From Planctomycetaceae bacterium (lineage in GTDB: Bacteria; Planctomycetota; Phycisphaerae; Phycisphaerales; SM1A02): 45,498 nt of DNA. Under the pieces are notes generated by a model. The model had not been told where the DNA came from. It made no database searches and was given only the letters and a program-made list of their open reading frames with translations. Below, piece after piece: positions 3,775 to 35,324 of the stretch (its first letter is position 1; the number at the start of each line of letters is the position of its first letter). A program made the position numbers and the translations under genes. The DNA is taken from positions 1-45,498 of the forward strand of contig JAJTGK010000019.1 in NCBI GenBank assembly GCA_021297815.1. The letters are read 5' to 3'.

Positions 3775-5898
3775 TCACGGTTTCACAGGCCGCGCCGCCA
3801 GGAACGCTGCGATGCGATCCGCGAAGTCGGCGGCACCCGCGTTGCGCGCGTCGGCCTCCATGCGCACGAGCGCGGGCCGCGCTGACTCGTCGCCTTGCGC
3901 AAGTCGTTGCGCCGCCTCGAGGAAGCGCGCGCCCATGTCGCCGTTCGAGCGGGTCACGAGCCGCATGGCGACGAGCTTCGCGGCGCGGTCCTCCTCGGCA
4001 TCGAGCCGCGTCTCGGCTGCGAGCGCGAGGTATCTCGACGCGGTCGCGAACCATGGCTGCGGCGCGCGGAAGACGAACCCGTCTTCATGCATCGACAGCG
4101 CCTTGAGGAGCGTCTTCCTCCCCTGCTCGGCGTCGCCCGTCGCGACGAGCAGCGCGCCGAGGTTCGCCACCATGTCGGTGTCGCTTGGAGCAAGCGCGAC
4201 GATGCGTCGGCACTGCGCGAGCGCCGCGGTGTTGTCTCCGCCTGCAGCGGCAAGGCGCATGAGGTCGCGCCGCGCGGCCAGTTCGTCGAAGCTCCCCGCA
4301 CCAGCCTCGGCCGAGCGCAGCAGCGCGTCGCGCGCCTCGTCGGGCCGAGCGAGCGCCTCGAGCACGCGCGCGCGCAACCAGTGGTTCTCGGCGATGTGCG
4401 GAGCGAGCGCGACGGCGCGGTCGATCGCCTTGAGCGCGCCACCGTTGTCGCCAAGCAGGCGCAGCGCTTCGCTCGCGTTGACCGCGTTGGTGAACTCGTC
4501 GGGCTTCAGGGCCGCCGCCTGCGCCGCGAGGTCGGCCGCTTCCCCCGCCTTCGCACGCACGGCGCTTCCATCGCCCGCGGCGAGCGCGGACTCGGCCTCG
4601 CGCAGGCGGATCGTCGCGAGGTTGTTGTGCGCGATCCACGCGGCGGGGTTCTGCTCGCGCGTCTTCATCCAGAGCGTCTCCTCGGACTCGTACTTCGCGG
4701 TCGCGCGTACCGAAAGCACCACCGACGCGAGCGCGAATGCGCCGAGCAGCGCCGCGGGCGCGAGCGAGCGGTGCGGAGCGAAGCGCTTGAGGCCCGCATG
4801 GACCGCCGCGACCAGCACGAGTGCGAACGCAGGCATCGCTGCGTAGGCGAAGTGGTCGGCGACGACCGAATAGCGGAATGGCCACACATCGATGAAGCCG
4901 AGTGCGGGAAAGAGCGCGGCGCCAATCCAGAGGTAGACGAAGAGCGGCGCGCGCATCCCGCGCCGCCAGTGCACGACGCAGCGCCACGCGGCGATGAGTG
5001 CGAGTGCAAGCGGTGTCCACAGCAGCGCGTCGCGCGCATCGATGCGGAGCTGCGGGTAGATGAAGACCTGTTCCCGCGGCACGAAGAACGAGCCGAGGTA
5101 GAAGAGCGCCACGCGTGGCGCGAGCTGGAGGCGTTCGAGGAGCGTCGGAGCGAAGTCGGTTCCGCGCGCACCGACGACGGTCTGCTCGACATGAGCGGTG
5201 TGCAGGCCGAGCACGATGCCGAGCACGAAGAAGGGTGCCGTGCGCACGATGAACGCGCGGTCGATCGTGCGTCGTTGCCAGAGCGCGATCATCACGAGGC
5301 ACGGCGGCACGAAGATCGCGGTGGTCTTCGACAGGAGCGCGCATGCGTACAGCGCGAACGACGCGATCCATGTTCCTGCGCGGCGCCGCGGTTCGGCCTC
5401 GAGGTGCTTCAGGAAGAACCACACGCTGCCGAGCGCGAAGAGCATCGACTGCACATTCTTGCGCTCGGTCACCCATGCGACGCTCTCGACGCCCATCGGA
5501 TGCACGGCGAAGACGAGAGCGATCCACATGCTGTACGGGATGGCAAGCCTGCGTGCGACGATGCAGAGCAGCACGGCGTTCGTCGCATGCATGAGGACAT
5601 TCACGAGGTGATATGCAAACGGCTCGACGCCTGAGACCGCATGCTGCGCCCAGAAGCCGGCGAACACGAGCGGGTAGTACTGCGGCGTGCGGCCTGGGAT
5701 AAATGCGTCAACAATGCCATATGGAGATGACACAACACGGTTCGCGGTGATGTAGCTGTCGTCATCCCAGATCCAGCCGGACGAGAGGCTCGCGCCATGC
5801 GCCAGGACCGCTGCCACGGCAACCAGAAGCAGCGCGAGATGGTCGCGGCGAAAGAGAGGATTGGGGGTCGGACGCATCGGTCGTAGCGTACCGCGCAT
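3775..5898 (-). CDS. Integral membrane protein with GT-C-like N-terminal half and C-terminal TPR repeats
   Basis: About 707 residues. The first ~400 are polytopic, with around ten hydrophobic segments. Just after the first helix is an acidic motif ('SGWIWDDDSYITANR') in the position where GT-C glycosyltransferases carry catalytic acidic residues, followed by a 'TPQYYPLVFAGFWAQH' loop typical of planctomycete TPR/GT-C proteins. From about 430 to the end it is Ala-rich alpha-helical repeat of TPR type. By family knowledge, such proteins resemble TMTC or PMT-like O-glycosyltransferases using lipid-linked sugars; activity is inferred only. The ATG at 5931 lies in a parS-like site and is rejected. 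ATGs at 5898 and 5877 are both possible and neither has a good ribosome-binding site. It is divergent from parB. Confidence 0.75.
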   Translation of the reverse strand: MRGTLRPMRPTPNPLFRRDHLALLLVAVAAVLAHGASLSSGWIWDDDSYITANRVVSSPYGIVDAFIPGRTPQYYPLVFAGFWAQHAVSGVEPFAYHLVNVLMHATNAVLLCIVARRLAIPYSMWIALVFAVHPMGVESVAWVTERKNVQSMLFALGSVWFFLKHLEAEPRRRAGTWIASFALYACALLSKTTAIFVPPCLVMIALWQRRTIDRAFIVRTAPFFVLGIVLGLHTAHVEQTVVGARGTDFAPTLLERLQLAPRVALFYLGSFFVPREQVFIYPQLRIDARDALLWTPLALALIAAWRCVVHWRRGMRAPLFVYLWIGAALFPALGFIDVWPFRYSVVADHFAYAAMPAFALVLVAAVHAGLKRFAPHRSLAPAALLGAFALASVVLSVRATAKYESEETLWMKTREQNPAAWIAHNNLATIRLREAESALAAGDGSAVRAKAGEAADLAAQAAALKPDEFTNAVNASEALRLLGDNGGALKAIDRAVALAPHIAENHWLRARVLEALARPDEARDALLRSAEAGAGSFDELAARRDLMRLAAAGGDNTAALAQCRRIVALAPSDTDMVANLGALLVATGDAEQGRKTLLKALSMHEDGFVFRAPQPWFATASRYLALAAETRLDAEEDRAAKLVAMRLVTRSNGDMGARFLEAAQRLAQGDESARPALVRMEADARNAGAADFADRIAAFLAARPVKP

Positions 5899-30505: not shown

Positions 30506-30531
30506 ATGCGCGTCGTAGGCGCGTGATTTTT
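30506..30531 (+). terminator. Probable terminator after cysS
   Basis: ATGCGC and GCGCGT pair over six bases (one G-U) around a seven-base loop, followed by GA and five T. It lies 28 bases after the cysS stop and directly before the next promoter. Confidence 0.45.
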
Positions 30532-30532
30532 C

Positions 30533-30561
30533 TTGCTCGGCCCATCGTTTTGTCGTATAGT
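30533..30561 (+). promoter_or_regulatory. Sigma-70-like promoter of the aptamer-led operon
   Basis: TTGCTC (30533-30538) and TATAGT (30556-30561) are separated by exactly 17 bases. Transcription would start near 30568, four bases before the first aptamer. The position relative to the aptamer independently supports both calls. Confidence 0.7.
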
Positions 30562-30571
30562 CGTCCTGTCA

Positions 30572-30664
30572 GCATCAAGAGCAGCGGAGCAATCCGCTCG
30601 GCAACCGAGTCCGATCCGACCACGGTGCCAAAGCGATGCGGCCCAGAAATGGCTGAAAACAGCC
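30572..30664 (+). ncRNA. SAM-riboswitch-like aptamer 1 (SAM-I/SAM-IV clan)
   Basis: Elements appear in the order of the SAM-I/SAM-IV clan. P1 5' strand GCATC (30572-30576); AAGAG; P2 hairpin AGCGGA-GCAA-TCCGCT; the conserved CGGCAACC (30599-30606); P3 formed by ACCG-a-GTC with GAC-ca-CGGT; the conserved GGTGCC (30624-30629) followed by AAA; and P1 3' strand GATGC (30635-30639). No P4 lies inside the core. Instead a hairpin GGCTG-AAAA-CAGCC follows P1, an arrangement closer to SAM-IV or the SAM-I/IV variant than to classical SAM-I. The ligand is inferred from the family, not shown. Confidence 0.72.
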
Positions 30665-30677
30665 AGAAACGGGCACA

Positions 30678-30756
30678 ATCGAGGATCTCCCCTGATCTCG
30701 ATGCTGATGCGGTGTGAGCGGTTGATCCGTTCGCATGTGGCGTCGGCGTTCACACC
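30678..30756 (+). other. Structured spacer between the two aptamers
   Basis: ATCGAGGATC and GATCTCGAT form a nine-base stem with one bulged G and a TCCCCT loop (30678-30702). GGTGTGA (30711-30717) and TCACACC (30750-30756) form a seven-base stem enclosing a smaller hairpin. A 22-codon ORF (MAENSQKRAQ...) crosses the region but has no ribosome-binding site and is not called. Confidence 0.5.
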
Positions 30757-30771
30757 GCGACAACCTGAAGT

Positions 30772-30876
30772 GCATCTCGAGCGACGCGCGCGCCGCGCAA
30801 CACACGGCGCGCGCTCCGGCAACCTGCTGCGAGGCAAGGTGCCACATCGATGCGGGCGGTGCGCGGGAAACGCACC
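30772..30876 (+). ncRNA. SAM-riboswitch-like aptamer 2, tandem with aptamer 1
   Basis: The same order recurs exactly 200 nt downstream: P1 5' GCATC (30772-30776); TCGAG; a ten-base perfect P2 (GCGCGCGCCG/CGGCGCGCGC) around a nine-base loop; CGGCAACC (30817-30824); P3 (ACCTGC with GCAAGGT, one bulge); GGTGCC (30838-30843); P1 3' GATGC (30849-30853). A hairpin GGTGCG-CGGGAAA-CGCACC again follows P1. P1, both conserved loops and the 3' hairpin are kept while P2 and P3 differ in sequence, as expected for two true aptamers rather than a recent duplication. Confidence 0.7.
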
Positions 30877-30906
30877 GTCAACCTCGCGAGGAGCGAGCGC
30901 TGTGCT

Positions 30907-30971
30907 GCTGCCCGTATCGGGCGGCGCGCGTGTCGCCGAGATGCGCTTCCGAGCGCCCGAAAGGGCGGAGG
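30907..30971 (+). promoter_or_regulatory. Putative expression platform: hairpins next to the ribosome-binding site
   Basis: GCTGCCCG-TAT-CGGGCGGC (30907-30925) and CGCCC-GAAA-GGGCG (30954-30967) are stable hairpins. The second abuts and shares a base with the Shine-Dalgarno GGAGG (30967-30971) of the ATG at 30981. No T-run follows, so control of translation start is more likely than termination. Confidence 0.45.
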
Positions 30972-30980
30972 ACGCGCGCC

Positions 30981-32120
30981 ATGTCGAGCCCAGGATCCGA
31001 GCCAACCATCACGCTCAACACTTCGGCGGCGTTTCAGCTCGTCGTCGCGGCACGCGATCGCGCGGTGCGCGATGCCGCGGCGGAAGCGCTCTGGCCTCGC
31101 GCGCATGCCGACGCCAGCGAACTCGATTGCAACGATGCCGACTTCAAGCGCCTTCCGTTCCACGAGCGCGTGCTGGCGCTGCTCGTCGCCTCGTGCATCG
31201 ACGCGCACCCCGACCGCGCGAAGCGCCTGCAGGCCGTGCCGCGCTACCGATTCCTGGCATCGGAGGGCGGAGTTGCCGAGCACCAGGGCGGTCGCGTGTT
31301 CTGCATGCGCGGCGGACGGCGCGGCGCATCGGTGACGATGCCGTCGGGTGAACGCCGCACCTGGAGGAACCACGCAGCCTTCGTGCTGCCGCACCTTGCG
31401 CAGGAAACCGTGCGGCAGCTCGTCGTCCCCGACGACCGCAGAGAACTTCCGTACATCGCGGGCATCGGGTGGATCGTCGACGAGAAGTCGGTCACGCTCG
31501 CGCTCGACAGCTGCATTCGTCGCCGCACATGGCACTGCGACATCTGGCCGACGCTGGTCACCGCCTCGGGCGATGTGCTGCGCAGAGACATGCGCGTGGT
31601 GTCACGGCTGATCGGTGACAAGGCGATCTCCATCGATTCCTCGCTTGCCATGCGGCTTGCCGCAGGCACGCTTTCGGGCGCGGTGCTCTCGTTCTACAAC
31701 CAGCTGCCGATGGGGGGCGGTCGGCGGCCACGGGATGCGACGCTTTCGCTCGAGATCGGCCCTTCGCTTCAGTCGCCGATCATCATGACGCAGCTCAGGG
31801 GAGACCTGCGGCCGCGCTACGAGCTCGACCGCATCGTGCTTGGAAAGCGTGTGGAGGTTCCCACGCTCGCAGGCAGAACGGTTGACCAGCTCGACACGAT
31901 CGCGCGCGAGGTCGGCGTGTGGCACGGGCCGCGCGTGCGAGGTTCGTTCGAGCATCACCCGCTCGGGACCAAGGGTCTGTCGGGGCTGTTGGACGACGCG
32001 GATGACGAATCTGGGAAGGACCCGTTGGCTTGCGAAACGGCGGCCCCTGGACCGCAGCGTTACGGCGACTTCAGCTGGAACGGAGCCCACGATGCCCTCC
32101 TTGAAGCCTTTGGATTTTGA
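30981..32120 (+). CDS. Unknown protein, first gene of the aptamer-led AAA/VWA operon
   Basis: 379 residues from the ATG at 30981, with GGAGG nine bases upstream; the ORF-track start at 30735 lies inside aptamer-region RNA and is rejected. I do not recognise a family. There is no signal peptide or membrane segment, so it is probably cytoplasmic. The N-terminal third is alpha-helical ('SAAFQLVVAARDRAVRDAAA'). The middle is beta-rich with several Trp ('YIAGIGWIVDEKSVTLALDS', 'RRRTWHCDIWPTLV'). The C-terminus is polar and acidic ('LLDDADDESGKDP') and may contact a partner. It is followed after three bases by the second unknown gene and then by AAA and VWA genes, so it is probably a substrate, adaptor or partner of that module. 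Confidence 0.8.
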   Translation: MSSPGSEPTITLNTSAAFQLVVAARDRAVRDAAAEALWPRAHADASELDCNDADFKRLPFHERVLALLVASCIDAHPDRAKRLQAVPRYRFLASEGGVAEHQGGRVFCMRGGRRGASVTMPSGERRTWRNHAAFVLPHLAQETVRQLVVPDDRRELPYIAGIGWIVDEKSVTLALDSCIRRRTWHCDIWPTLVTASGDVLRRDMRVVSRLIGDKAISIDSSLAMRLAAGTLSGAVLSFYNQLPMGGGRRPRDATLSLEIGPSLQSPIIMTQLRGDLRPRYELDRIVLGKRVEVPTLAGRTVDQLDTIAREVGVWHGPRVRGSFEHHPLGTKGLSGLLDDADDESGKDPLACETAAPGPQRYGDFSWNGAHDALLEAFGF

Positions 32121-32123
32121 ACC

Positions 32124-32993
32124 ATGAACTTCCTCATACCACAAGCGATCGACGCCCTCGATCCATGGGACCGAGCCCGTCGGCCCGACACGCTCATCGA
32201 CACGACGCTGCTGCGTCACCCCGCGGCGTTTGGCGAGGCGCTGCGTCCGCTGCTCGAGGGGACGCGCGAACTCGTGCTGCGCGAAGGCGACGAGCTCTCG
32301 CGCGCGTCGCTCGCGGCGCCAGCGATTCACGCGAGCCGCGAGGAGTCGGACATCTTGCGCGCGCGCAGCGTGCTCGAGCGTCGTCCGTCTGCAAGCGAGC
32401 GCGCGGCGCGCGCGCTGGTGAGCGTGTTCGATGGTCGGCTCGAGATCGCGCTCGCGTATCCCGTGCCCGCGATGGGCGAGCGGGCCGCCGCAAAGATCCA
32501 TCCCGTGGCGCTCGGGGACCCGCTCTATGCGGGCCTGCGTCGGAGCAAGGCCAACGCGCACACCGTCGATGCGTGGCACAAGCTCGGGCACGCGCAGCCG
32601 CCGCATTCGGTGTGGGTCGGGGAGATTCCGATCTGGTCGAGCGGATCTCAGCAACTTGCGATCGAGATCGTTCCCAACCCGTGGGGATACAACGAGGCGG
32701 TGCTGATCGCGCATCGCGGCGCAGGCCGCGTGCTTGCGGTCGAACTCGAACTCGGCGACGACTGCACGCTCAAGCCCGCACGCGTGATGCCGTCGGGTTG
32801 GTCGTACCTGCGGCCCGACCGCACGCAGGGCAGCACGGCACCGTGCTTCCCGCACGGCGCACCCGCGGTGTCGCCGCATGTGCGGGTGCCCGACCTCGAC
32901 CTCTTCGCGCTTTGCGCCACGCGCACCTGGGCGGCATCGCCGCGCGACACGCTGTGGCTCTGCGCGCGTCCTGGCCTGCGCGCGCTCGGGTAG
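32124..32993 (+). CDS. Unknown protein, second gene of the aptamer-led AAA/VWA operon
   Basis: 289 residues, starting three bases after the previous stop. No family is recognised. It has no signal peptide or transmembrane helix. An Ala/Arg-rich helical part (about 1-110) precedes a beta-rich part with 'AHTVDAWHKLGHAQPPHSVW', 'IPIWSSGSQQLAIEIVPNPW' and 'MPSGWSYLRPDRTQGS'. Several aromatic and Pro-rich turns suggest a compact beta fold. 'HxxxxAWHKLGH' carries clustered His residues but not a known metal motif. It is separated from the AAA gene by 61 bases carrying a good ribosome-binding site and is read as part of the same operon. Confidence 0.78.
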   Translation: MNFLIPQAIDALDPWDRARRPDTLIDTTLLRHPAAFGEALRPLLEGTRELVLREGDELSRASLAAPAIHASREESDILRARSVLERRPSASERAARALVSVFDGRLEIALAYPVPAMGERAAAKIHPVALGDPLYAGLRRSKANAHTVDAWHKLGHAQPPHSVWVGEIPIWSSGSQQLAIEIVPNPWGYNEAVLIAHRGAGRVLAVELELGDDCTLKPARVMPSGWSYLRPDRTQGSTAPCFPHGAPAVSPHVRVPDLDLFALCATRTWAASPRDTLWLCARPGLRALG

Positions 32994-33054
32994 CGAGGGC
33001 CGCCCGTCACACCAACACACCGCAATCCATCAACAGCACACGAAAGGACACACC

Positions 33055-34038
33055 ATGACTCCCTCTCAGATCCGCTCGAACCTCGACTCGCTCCTGAAGA
33101 CCCGCTGGCCCGCGTTCATCTGGGGTCCGCCCGGCGTGGGCAAGTCGGCGATCGTCGCGCAGCTCGCCGCGGAGCGCGGGCTTGCGCTCCTCGACATTCG
33201 CGCGCCCCTCCTCGACCCGACCGACCTGCGCGGCATTCCCGCCGTCGTCGGCGATCGCGCCGAGTGGTTCGCGCCGTCGTTCCTTCCGCGCGCCGACGCG
33301 CCGCGCGGCATCCTCTTCTTCGACGAGCTCAACGCCGCGCCGCCGATCGTACAGGCGAGCCTCTACCAGCTCGTGCTCGACCGCAGGATCGGCGAGTACA
33401 CGCTGCCGAGCGGGTGGCACATCGTGGCCGCGGGAAACCGCGAGCAGGACCGCTCGGTCGTCTTCCGCATGCCCGATGCGCTTGCGAACCGCTTCGTGCA
33501 TCTCGAGTTCGAGGCGTCGTTCGACGACTGGCGCTCGTGGGCGATCGCGCGCGGGCTGAACCCGATCGTCGTCGCGTTTCTCAGCCTGCGCCGCGAGCTC
33601 CTGCACAAGCCTGGCGGAAACGAGCGCGCGTTCCCCACGCCGCGTTCCTGGGAGATGGCGGCGGACATCCTCGACGCGTTCGACGGCGGCACGCCGCCCG
33701 ACGACGCGATCGTGGGCTGCGTCGGGAAGGGCGCGGCGATCGAGCTGACGACCTTCGCGCAGGAATCGATGACCGCGCACGAGGTCGACGAGGTGCTGCG
33801 CGACCCCGAGTCGGCGCCACTGCCGTCGAAGGCATCGAGCCTCTATGTGCTTGTGAGCAGCCTCGCGCGCTCGGCGGGCGACGAGGCGAGGCGCCAGGTC
33901 TCGGCGAAGCTCCTCTCGCGGCTGCCCGTCGAGTTCGCGACGATTCTCGCGAAGGATCTCCTGCGCCATCAGCCGCTCTTCATCCGCGACGAGCGCTTCC
34001 AGCGGTTCGTGCGTGCGAACAAGGAGGTGTTCGCATGA
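33055..34038 (+). CDS. MoxR-like AAA+ ATPase
   Basis: 327 residues from the ATG at 33055, with AAAGGA upstream. Walker A is 'GPPGVGKS' (24-31) and Walker B 'ILFFDELNAA' (86-95), followed by a sensor-1-like 'HIVAAGNRE' and an arginine-finger region 'DALANRFVHLEFE'. This is the dynein-related/MoxR branch of AAA+, whose members act with VWA-domain partners as chaperones that assemble or mature protein complexes, often by metal insertion. The C-terminal part has a helical lid. Its gene overlaps the VWA gene by ATGA, so translation is coupled and a physical pair is likely. The client is unknown; the two upstream unknown proteins are candidates. Confidence 0.9.
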   Translation: MTPSQIRSNLDSLLKTRWPAFIWGPPGVGKSAIVAQLAAERGLALLDIRAPLLDPTDLRGIPAVVGDRAEWFAPSFLPRADAPRGILFFDELNAAPPIVQASLYQLVLDRRIGEYTLPSGWHIVAAGNREQDRSVVFRMPDALANRFVHLEFEASFDDWRSWAIARGLNPIVVAFLSLRRELLHKPGGNERAFPTPRSWEMAADILDAFDGGTPPDDAIVGCVGKGAAIELTTFAQESMTAHEVDEVLRDPESAPLPSKASSLYVLVSSLARSAGDEARRQVSAKLLSRLPVEFATILAKDLLRHQPLFIRDERFQRFVRANKEVFA

Positions 34039-35324
34039 GCGCCGTGACCACAGGCAGGATCGTCGGGCCATCAAGCGCCGAGGAGACCGAGGCGATCGCG
34101 CGAAGCCGCGTCGAGCTCGCGCGCATGGACCTGCTGCTCGACCATCCGTACTTCGCCACGGCGCTCTTCGCGATGCCGATGCGCGGCACCGACGACGCGT
34201 CGCTCGCGCATGCGGTCGTGACCGACGGCGCGCGCATCGCCTACCACTTCGAGCGGGTCGCGGCGCTCGAACGGCCGAAGGTGCGACTGCTGCTCATGCA
34301 TGCGCTGTCTCACGCGCTGCTTCGGCACAACGAGCGTGGCGAAGGCAGGGACTGGACGCGGTGGACGGCCGCGTGCGACATCGCGGTGACGCAACTGCTG
34401 CAGTCGCTCGGCGCGGTTCCGCCTGCAGAGGACGAGAGGCTCGATGATTTCGCTGGGCTTTCGGCCGAGGCGATCTACGAGAAGCTCGACGAACCTGGTG
34501 GCCCGAGCAATGACGGCGCTTCGCCCGAGGATGGGCTGCTTCCGCCCCCGTCGGGCGGCGGGCACTCGGACGACCCGCAGGCAGACGCCCAGTCGCGCGA
34601 CGCCTTCGATCGCGCGCTGCAGGGTGCCGAGATGCCGACGGCGACGACGCTCGCGGCGATGCGGTGGAACTTCGACGAGGCCGCACAGCATGCGGGTGCC
34701 AAGCTTTCGGGCGATCGTCCAGGGTCAGGAAGCGCCGAGATCGACGCCGCGAACTCGATCACGAAGCCGTGGCAGACGCTTCTCGCATGCTTCATGCGCG
34801 AGCCGCTCGGGCGCGAGTGGTCGCTCGCGCGGCCGAACCGCAAGCACCTGTGGCGCGGCCTCTACCTGCCTGGCCCGATGGACCTCGAGGGCGGCCGCTT
34901 CGTGGTGGCCATCGACACCTCGGGCTCGATGACCAACATGGACCTCGCGAAGATCCTCGAGGAGATCGACGCGATCCGCACGACGCTCGACTGCGAGCTC
35001 ACGGTGCTGCAGTTCGACGCCGCGGTGCACGCGGTCGCGGAGTTCTCGCGATGGTCCGACACCGACGAGCGGGTCGGCTCGACGCGCATGATGCGCGTGT
35101 TCGGACGCGGCGGCACCGACCTGCGGCTTCCGTTCCAGTGGACCGACGCCGAGTGCCGCGCAGGCCGACGCGTGTCGGCGCTCATCGTGTGCACCGATGG
35201 ATTCGGGCCGTTGCCCACGGAGCCGCCGCCCGATCTGCCCGTGCTCTTCCTACTCACCAAGACGCACGCCGCACCCGCGTTCGGCACGCATGTCGTGATG
35301 GAGCAGGCGCCAGCGCGGCGATGA
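34035..35324 (+). CDS. DUF2201-type protein: degenerate metallopeptidase-like domain plus VWA domain
   Basis: 429 residues; ATG at 34035 overlaps the AAA stop by four bases and AAGGAGG lies just upstream. The N-terminal domain matches the metallopeptidase-like part of the family ('LDHPYFATALF', 'WTAACDIAVTQLLQSLG', 'FAGLSAEAIYEKL'). The zinc motif normally written HExxH is here HALSH (89-93), with Ala for the catalytic Glu, so peptidase activity is doubtful. A Gly/Pro/Asp-rich linker (about 155-190) leads to a VWA-like domain with MIDAS residues 'DTSGSM' (D294), 'GRGGTD' and 'CTDGFG'. AAA-VWA pairs of this type are widespread and mostly uncharacterised. Confidence 0.88.
   Translation: MSAVTTGRIVGPSSAEETEAIARSRVELARMDLLLDHPYFATALFAMPMRGTDDASLAHAVVTDGARIAYHFERVAALERPKVRLLLMHALSHALLRHNERGEGRDWTRWTAACDIAVTQLLQSLGAVPPAEDERLDDFAGLSAEAIYEKLDEPGGPSNDGASPEDGLLPPPSGGGHSDDPQADAQSRDAFDRALQGAEMPTATTLAAMRWNFDEAAQHAGAKLSGDRPGSGSAEIDAANSITKPWQTLLACFMREPLGREWSLARPNRKHLWRGLYLPGPMDLEGGRFVVAIDTSGSMTNMDLAKILEEIDAIRTTLDCELTVLQFDAAVHAVAEFSRWSDTDERVGSTRMMRVFGRGGTDLRLPFQWTDAECRAGRRVSALIVCTDGFGPLPTEPPPDLPVLFLLTKTHAAPAFGTHVVMEQAPARR

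Follow-up and report, generated by a model that had tools for sequence, protein, structure and literature searches.

The approximately 410-nt leader of an operon in a freshwater Phycisphaerales bacterium carries two SAM-riboswitch aptamers in series, here copy 1 and copy 2 (aptamers 1 and 2 in Table 1). Copy 1 is also followed by copy 2 in nine congeneric species, which gives ten tandem species in total. The reading that we prefer, at a probability of roughly 0.7, is that the leader consists of two complete SAM riboswitches in series that SAM would switch off, the second of them acting on translation. The two predicted competing helices, independent of each other, give good support to a serial arrangement of two switches; SAM binding, the OFF direction, translation as the output and the steepness of the response we infer. 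The operon under control of the tandem is not a methionine or SAM operon, but consists of protein families A and X and a MoxR-DUF2201 pair. This operon, the two anti-P1 strands of the leader and a conserved middle domain between the copies go beyond the original prediction for this DNA. Throughout, the window is the whole stretch of 45,498 nucleotides that was analysed. Assignment to the Phycisphaerales, Planctomycetota, was made via relatives of cysS, and two close relatives are environmental bins, judged to be of freshwater origin from their isolate names.

Table 1. Features of the tandem leader and its operon (positions in the window).
Feature	Position	Strand	Basis or remark
Predicted promoter	-35 TTGCTC 30533-30538, -10 TATAGT 30556-30561	+	-10 aligned across species
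Aptamer 1, SAM-I/IV	30567-30687, including pseudoknot tail	+	P1 GCATC/GATGC, P2, P3, 3' hairpin, pseudoknot
AT1 5' strand TCAGCATCAAGAGCAG	30569-30584	+	P1/J1-2 of aptamer 1; complementary to 30692-30707
Hairpin T1 ATCGAGGATC..GATCTCGAT	30678-30702	+	Read from sequence and species alignment
AT1 3' strand CTGATCTCGATGCTGA	30692-30707	+	Anti-P1 of aptamer 1
Conserved middle domain	30697-30771	+	Two mutually exclusive pairings, then linker GACAACCTGAAG
AT2 5' strand GAAGTGCATCTCG	30767-30779	+	Linker and P1 5' strand of aptamer 2
Aptamer 2, SAM-IV / SAM-I/IV-like	30770-30888	+	Sub-cut-off Rfam scores, covariation, ten species
Long hairpin	30893-30936	+	Between aptamer 2 and anti-P1 strand; sequence and alignment
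AT2 3' strand CGAGATGCGCTTC	30937-30949	+	Anti-P1 strand of aptamer 2, doubling as anti-SD strand
Shine-Dalgarno GGAGGA	30967-30972	+	Within predicted hairpin 30943-30977
Family A, 379 aa, first operon gene	30981-32120	+	No database match
Family X, 289 aa, second gene	32124-32993	+	No database match
MoxR-type AAA ATPase	32878-34038	+	Pfam AAA_5 1.3e-7
DUF2201 metallopeptidase-like and VWA-like protein	33264-35324	+	PF13203 2.9e-27, PF09967 1.3e-16

Both aptamers are very likely real. The region 30567-30669 of copy 1 scores 52.0 bits with the SAM-I/IV model (RF01725), above its gathering threshold of 41.1 bits, with an E-value of 1.4e-7 over the whole 3.03-Mb assembly of 180 contigs. The SAM-I model (RF00162) matches this copy weakly, at 26.4 bits against a gathering threshold of 44.4, and finds no other place in the whole assembly. 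Copy 2 remains below the Rfam cut-offs both for SAM-IV (RF00634; 30.8 vs 38 bits, genome-wide E 0.0019) and for SAM-I/IV (30.4 vs 41.1 bits, genome-wide E 0.0085). Two significant matches to the SAM models had been expected, and that expectation holds by threshold for copy 1 but by E-value only for copy 2. The two copies are the sole SAM-I/IV places in the assembly, copy 2 is its best SAM-IV place, and in one relative (G004) copy 2 by itself exceeds the SAM-I/IV cut-off, with 41.6 bits. Its long GC-rich P2, a near-continuous helix in which one or two bases are bulged, and its divergent 3' hairpin are possible causes of the low score.

The alignment of the ten tandem species speaks for copy 2 as a conserved structure. 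Its P1, P2, P3, 3' hairpin and pseudoknot have 95.7% of their cells paired, and in tests on these ten related sequences 8 pairs showed changes in both partners, where 2.5 were expected, a value that none of 500 shuffles reached; in all, four of the five covariation measures gave 0/500. The signal is strongest in the 3' hairpin, with five covarying pairs. The pseudoknot of copy 2 joins the P3 loop (30828-30834) to the 3' tail (30882-30888) as TGCGAGG/CCTCGCG, with 98.6% of cells paired, and is near-invariant in the genus, as GCGAGG/CCTCGC, where copy 1 has GATCC (30613-30617) in its P3 loop and GGATC (30683-30687) in its tail. By eye, the copy 1 pseudoknot is complementary in most species, with some wobble or shortening, and ambiguous in G011. 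Consequently, the Rfam match of copy 1, and the covariation and ten species for copy 2, bear out the prediction of two structured SAM-clan aptamers. Its likening of both to the SAM-IV or SAM-I/IV type also stands: P4 is missing, a hairpin lies immediately 3' of P1 in each copy, and the P2 and P3 sequences are unlike between the copies and keep their pairing in both. The core motifs, likewise, are where they had been placed, with GCATC at 30572 and 30772, GGCAACC at 30600 and 30818, GGTGCC at 30624 and 30838, and GATGC at 30635 and 30849; the aptamers themselves extend slightly further than first described (Table 1). The spacing of exactly 200 nt between the copies, to which significance had been attached, is a coincidence and was dropped as a feature, since it varies from 197 to 250 nt in the relatives.

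A transcription start just before copy 1 had also been proposed and is plausible, given that almost all species have an aligned -10 hexamer of TATA type at the position of the predicted promoter, despite diverging upstream sequence; this promoter was not among the calls of a consensus promoter scan of the window. A terminator-like hairpin with a T-run, at 30507-30525, lies just past cysS and ahead of the predicted promoter, an arrangement compatible with transcription of the riboswitch operon as a unit of its own.

Copy 1 is present in 12 of the 16 genomes of the genus. One of them, G009, has kept copy 1 (locus L039, P1 start near 4656) and lost the P2-P3 core of copy 2, of which P1- and hairpin-like remnants are left; another, G013 (L043, reverse strand), carries copy 1 by itself, and the gene that follows it is a different one. 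No SAM-riboswitch match was found in G003, G008 and G015, and G007 gave a weak match only. A search of about 780 further genomes sampled from the class and the phylum gave no case of two matches within 1 kb, under stricter filters that may miss weak second copies. Two or three SAM-I/IV matches 1.5-2 kb apart on the same contig were seen in other Planctomycetota, at G651:C57 (194, 2179, 3752) and G865:C58 (920, 2872), possibly one per gene. Single SAM-I/IV riboswitches also occur in other genera of the family (L005-L010, in G019, G022, G063, G069, G050 and G048), where they sit upstream of short or unrecognised proteins and not of obvious methionine genes. Judged by eye, order-level relatives (L023, L024, L027, L028, L030-L033) have SAM-I-like matches before cystathionine gamma-synthase-like proteins, and at L011 a SAM-I/IV match is followed by a MetK-like protein.

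Each copy has a helix of its own that competes with its P1. The AT1 helix, TCAGCATCAAGAGCAG/CTGATCTCGATGCTGA, contains two mismatches in the window; an equivalent helix stands above shuffles in nine of the ten tandem species (p<=0.012 each; not significant in G011), and G012 has a compensating change from A-U to G-C. The AT2 helix has 13 bp, and in each of the ten tandem species its equivalent stands above dinucleotide shuffles (p<=0.027), with compensating changes between the window and its relatives (CTCG/CGAG against CCCG/CGGG). AT2 is absent from G009, whose aptamer-2 core is deleted. In constrained folding, enforcing each P1 abolishes the respective AT1 or AT2. Hairpin T1 overlaps the tail of the pseudoknot and is a competitor of AT1. 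It is not followed by a U-tract, no terminator-like site was found between the aptamers in the window, and the aligned leaders are likewise without a U-tract; an intrinsic terminator of canonical form was accordingly rejected as the platform of aptamer 1. The long hairpin that separates aptamer 2 from its anti-P1 strand is conserved, and is shorter in G004 and G006.

The mechanism that we propose would work as follows. Binding of SAM would lock the P1 helix of each aptamer, while without SAM the 5' strand of P1 would pair with its own downstream partner, as AT1 in copy 1 and as AT2 in copy 2. The partner strand of AT2, once freed by SAM, would form base pairs across the Shine-Dalgarno region, with less translation as the result, and SAM would thereby turn the operon down. 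Copy 1 would control the folding of the middle domain, with either that folding or Rho-dependent termination as its possible output. A serial pair of sensors for the same ligand would then give a steeper or two-stage OFF response. The 3' strand of AT2 can indeed pair across the Shine-Dalgarno sequence in most species, and in the folding model occlusion upon formation of P1-2, the P1 of copy 2, is clear in G002, G004, G006, G010 and G011. In the window, accessibility is about equal with and without P1-2 (0.32 vs 0.34), and in G012 the effect is reversed. Because this effect is not uniform across species, we infer, and go no further than that, the OFF direction and the translational output.

The 75-nt domain between the copies is conserved in all ten tandem leaders, which score 75-91 bits with a model of it (R2); elsewhere in 181 genomes of the family the model reaches about 32 bits or less. 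It contains two mutually exclusive pairings, a/a' (30703-30710 with 30740-30747), conserved with covariation that is not significant, and b/b' (30709-30716 with 30751-30758), supported by covariation. AT1 overlaps strand a, so that aptamer 1 could select between the two. The hairpins of the domain are followed by no U-tract, which makes a standard terminator unlikely as the output of aptamer 1. An H-type pseudoknot of both pairings is sterically unlikely, as they share bases and leave no connecting loop. A leader peptide was dropped as a candidate, the reading frames and stops not being conserved by eye. Nor do we take the domain to occur elsewhere in the family as an element in its own right, since of its four best outside matches three lie within one coding sequence; the fourth, in G034, scored 30.6 bits. 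Tentatively, and with the odds clearly against it, the domain might be an undescribed regulatory element, either a third sensor or a site for Rho or another protein, with aptamer 1 toggling its two exclusive folds. The leader would then be a device of three parts, with an effect on transcription followed by one on translation, and would place the MoxR-VWA operon under SAM control.

The sequence of the binding pocket bears on the ligand. As contact set we took the positions within 5 Å of SAM in SAM-I (6-8, 11-12, 44-47, 57-59 and 87, as listed in PMC6890682). Because these positions carry the same bases in copy 1 and copy 2 throughout the ten tandem species, SAM is likely to be the ligand of both. 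The original prediction had left the choice between a steeper response and a two-input gate; we favour a response to a single ligand, steeper or in two stages, since each copy has its own competing helix and the contact positions agree, and we do not favour the gate. For a gate, the specificity of copy 2 would have to have changed, for instance to another SAM derivative or a polyamine. Its scores under the SAM-model cut-offs, an operon outside methionine metabolism and J1/2 positions 9-10, mostly C-C or U-C instead of A-A, would agree with such a change, and a spermidine-sensing SAM-I variant is known (PMC10853860). That variant, however, has altered contact positions, and those of copy 2 are all as in copy 1; positions 9-10 lie outside the contact list and vary in copy 1 too (C-C in G001, C-A in three others), and the low score may have the causes in P2 and the 3' hairpin named above. 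We therefore regard a gate as improbable.

We give an equally small chance to the idea that both aptamers form one cooperative unit acting on a single expression platform, in the fashion of a glycine riboswitch. The copies do occur together and in constant order in ten species, but each has a separate anti-P1 strand, about 80-120 nt that include another conserved domain lie between them, and G013 and, apart from its remnant, G009 have copy 1 without a complete copy 2. That copy 2 is a decaying, functionless duplicate and the leader effectively a single riboswitch is most improbable: its sub-threshold scores and the loss of its core in G009 could be so explained, but its helices covary and its pocket and AT2 helix are kept in ten species, and G009 itself exemplifies what decay looks like, with AT2 decaying there along with the core.

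The two riboswitches in series of our preferred reading stand before a little-understood operon of MoxR type. Families A and X are without a match in Pfam, NCBIfam, PADLOC and the sequences of the PDB; their structure models were too poor to be of use (pLDDT 61 and 31), and a fold search had no result under 0.001. Relatives of family A occur solely downstream of the same tandem, save for one marginal match; an initial protein search of the genome contigs had found none. The MoxR frame is open from 32878, with the start probably farther in, at the methionine of MTPSQ, and the DUF2201 open frame likewise begins upstream of its real start. The gene set behind the tandem is the same as in the window in G004, G010 and G012, and family X is the first gene after it in G001, G002, G005, G011 and G014. 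MoxR and DUF2201 also lie downstream of copy 1 in G009. In G007 (L165, about 1100-1470), which has no tandem, a diverged SAM-like aptamer with the motifs GCATGAAGAG, CAGCAACC, GGTGCTG and GATGC directly precedes the MoxR-DUF2201 pair; at 23.4 bits and an E-value of 0.3 it is not called by Rfam. A search of the accessible literature gave no report tying SAM riboswitches to MoxR.

The doublet is hidden from annotation because copy 2 falls under the Rfam cut-offs, and standard cut-offs conceal the second copy in nine of the ten species. On our reading, the leader would link SAM sensing to a MoxR-DUF2201 operon. Furthermore, the genus provides natural controls, one with the core of copy 2 deleted and one with copy 1 only, so that the worth of a second aptamer can be tested directly.

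Compared with known systems, the leader shares with SAM-I/IV riboswitches (RF01725) the core motifs, the 3' hairpin and the pseudoknot between P3 loop and 3' tail, with a P2 that looks continuous or, in copy 2, nearly so, and differs in having two aptamers in series before a MoxR-DUF2201 operon instead of methionine genes. Copy 2 resembles SAM-IV (RF00634), its top-scoring family, in the P5 hairpin, the lack of P4 and PK-2, the P3-loop/3'-tail pseudoknot, and is unlike it in scoring below the cut-off, and, by eye, in showing neither a split into P2a and P2b nor PK-1 complementarity. Tandem SAM riboswitches as such are already known: the accessible part of a survey (PMC9481103) reports 164 SAM-I doublets, 44 SAM-II doublets, 149 SAM-II/SAM-V pairs, seven SAM-II to SAM-I/IV pairs and two SAM-I/IV to SAM-II pairs, and no SAM-I/IV or SAM-IV doublet. 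A SAM-I/IV doublet was likewise absent from the accessible literature, so that, to that extent, a doublet of SAM-I/IV type adds to them. As in the leaders of the survey, two SAM sensors would be expected to give pseudo-cooperative or two-stage control; relative to its accessible part, the SAM-I/IV type of the doublet, the conserved intervening domain and the lack of a U-tract terminator are different. The tandem glycine riboswitch likewise has two like aptamers in one leader, but uses one platform where each aptamer here has a competing helix. In bi-mechanism tandems the first riboswitch terminates transcription and the second is translational, whereas no intrinsic terminator is found here under aptamer 1. 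The leader agrees with two-platform tandem riboswitches, in which each aptamer has its own mutually exclusive alternative helix, as AT1 in nine and AT2 in all ten of the tandem species would provide.
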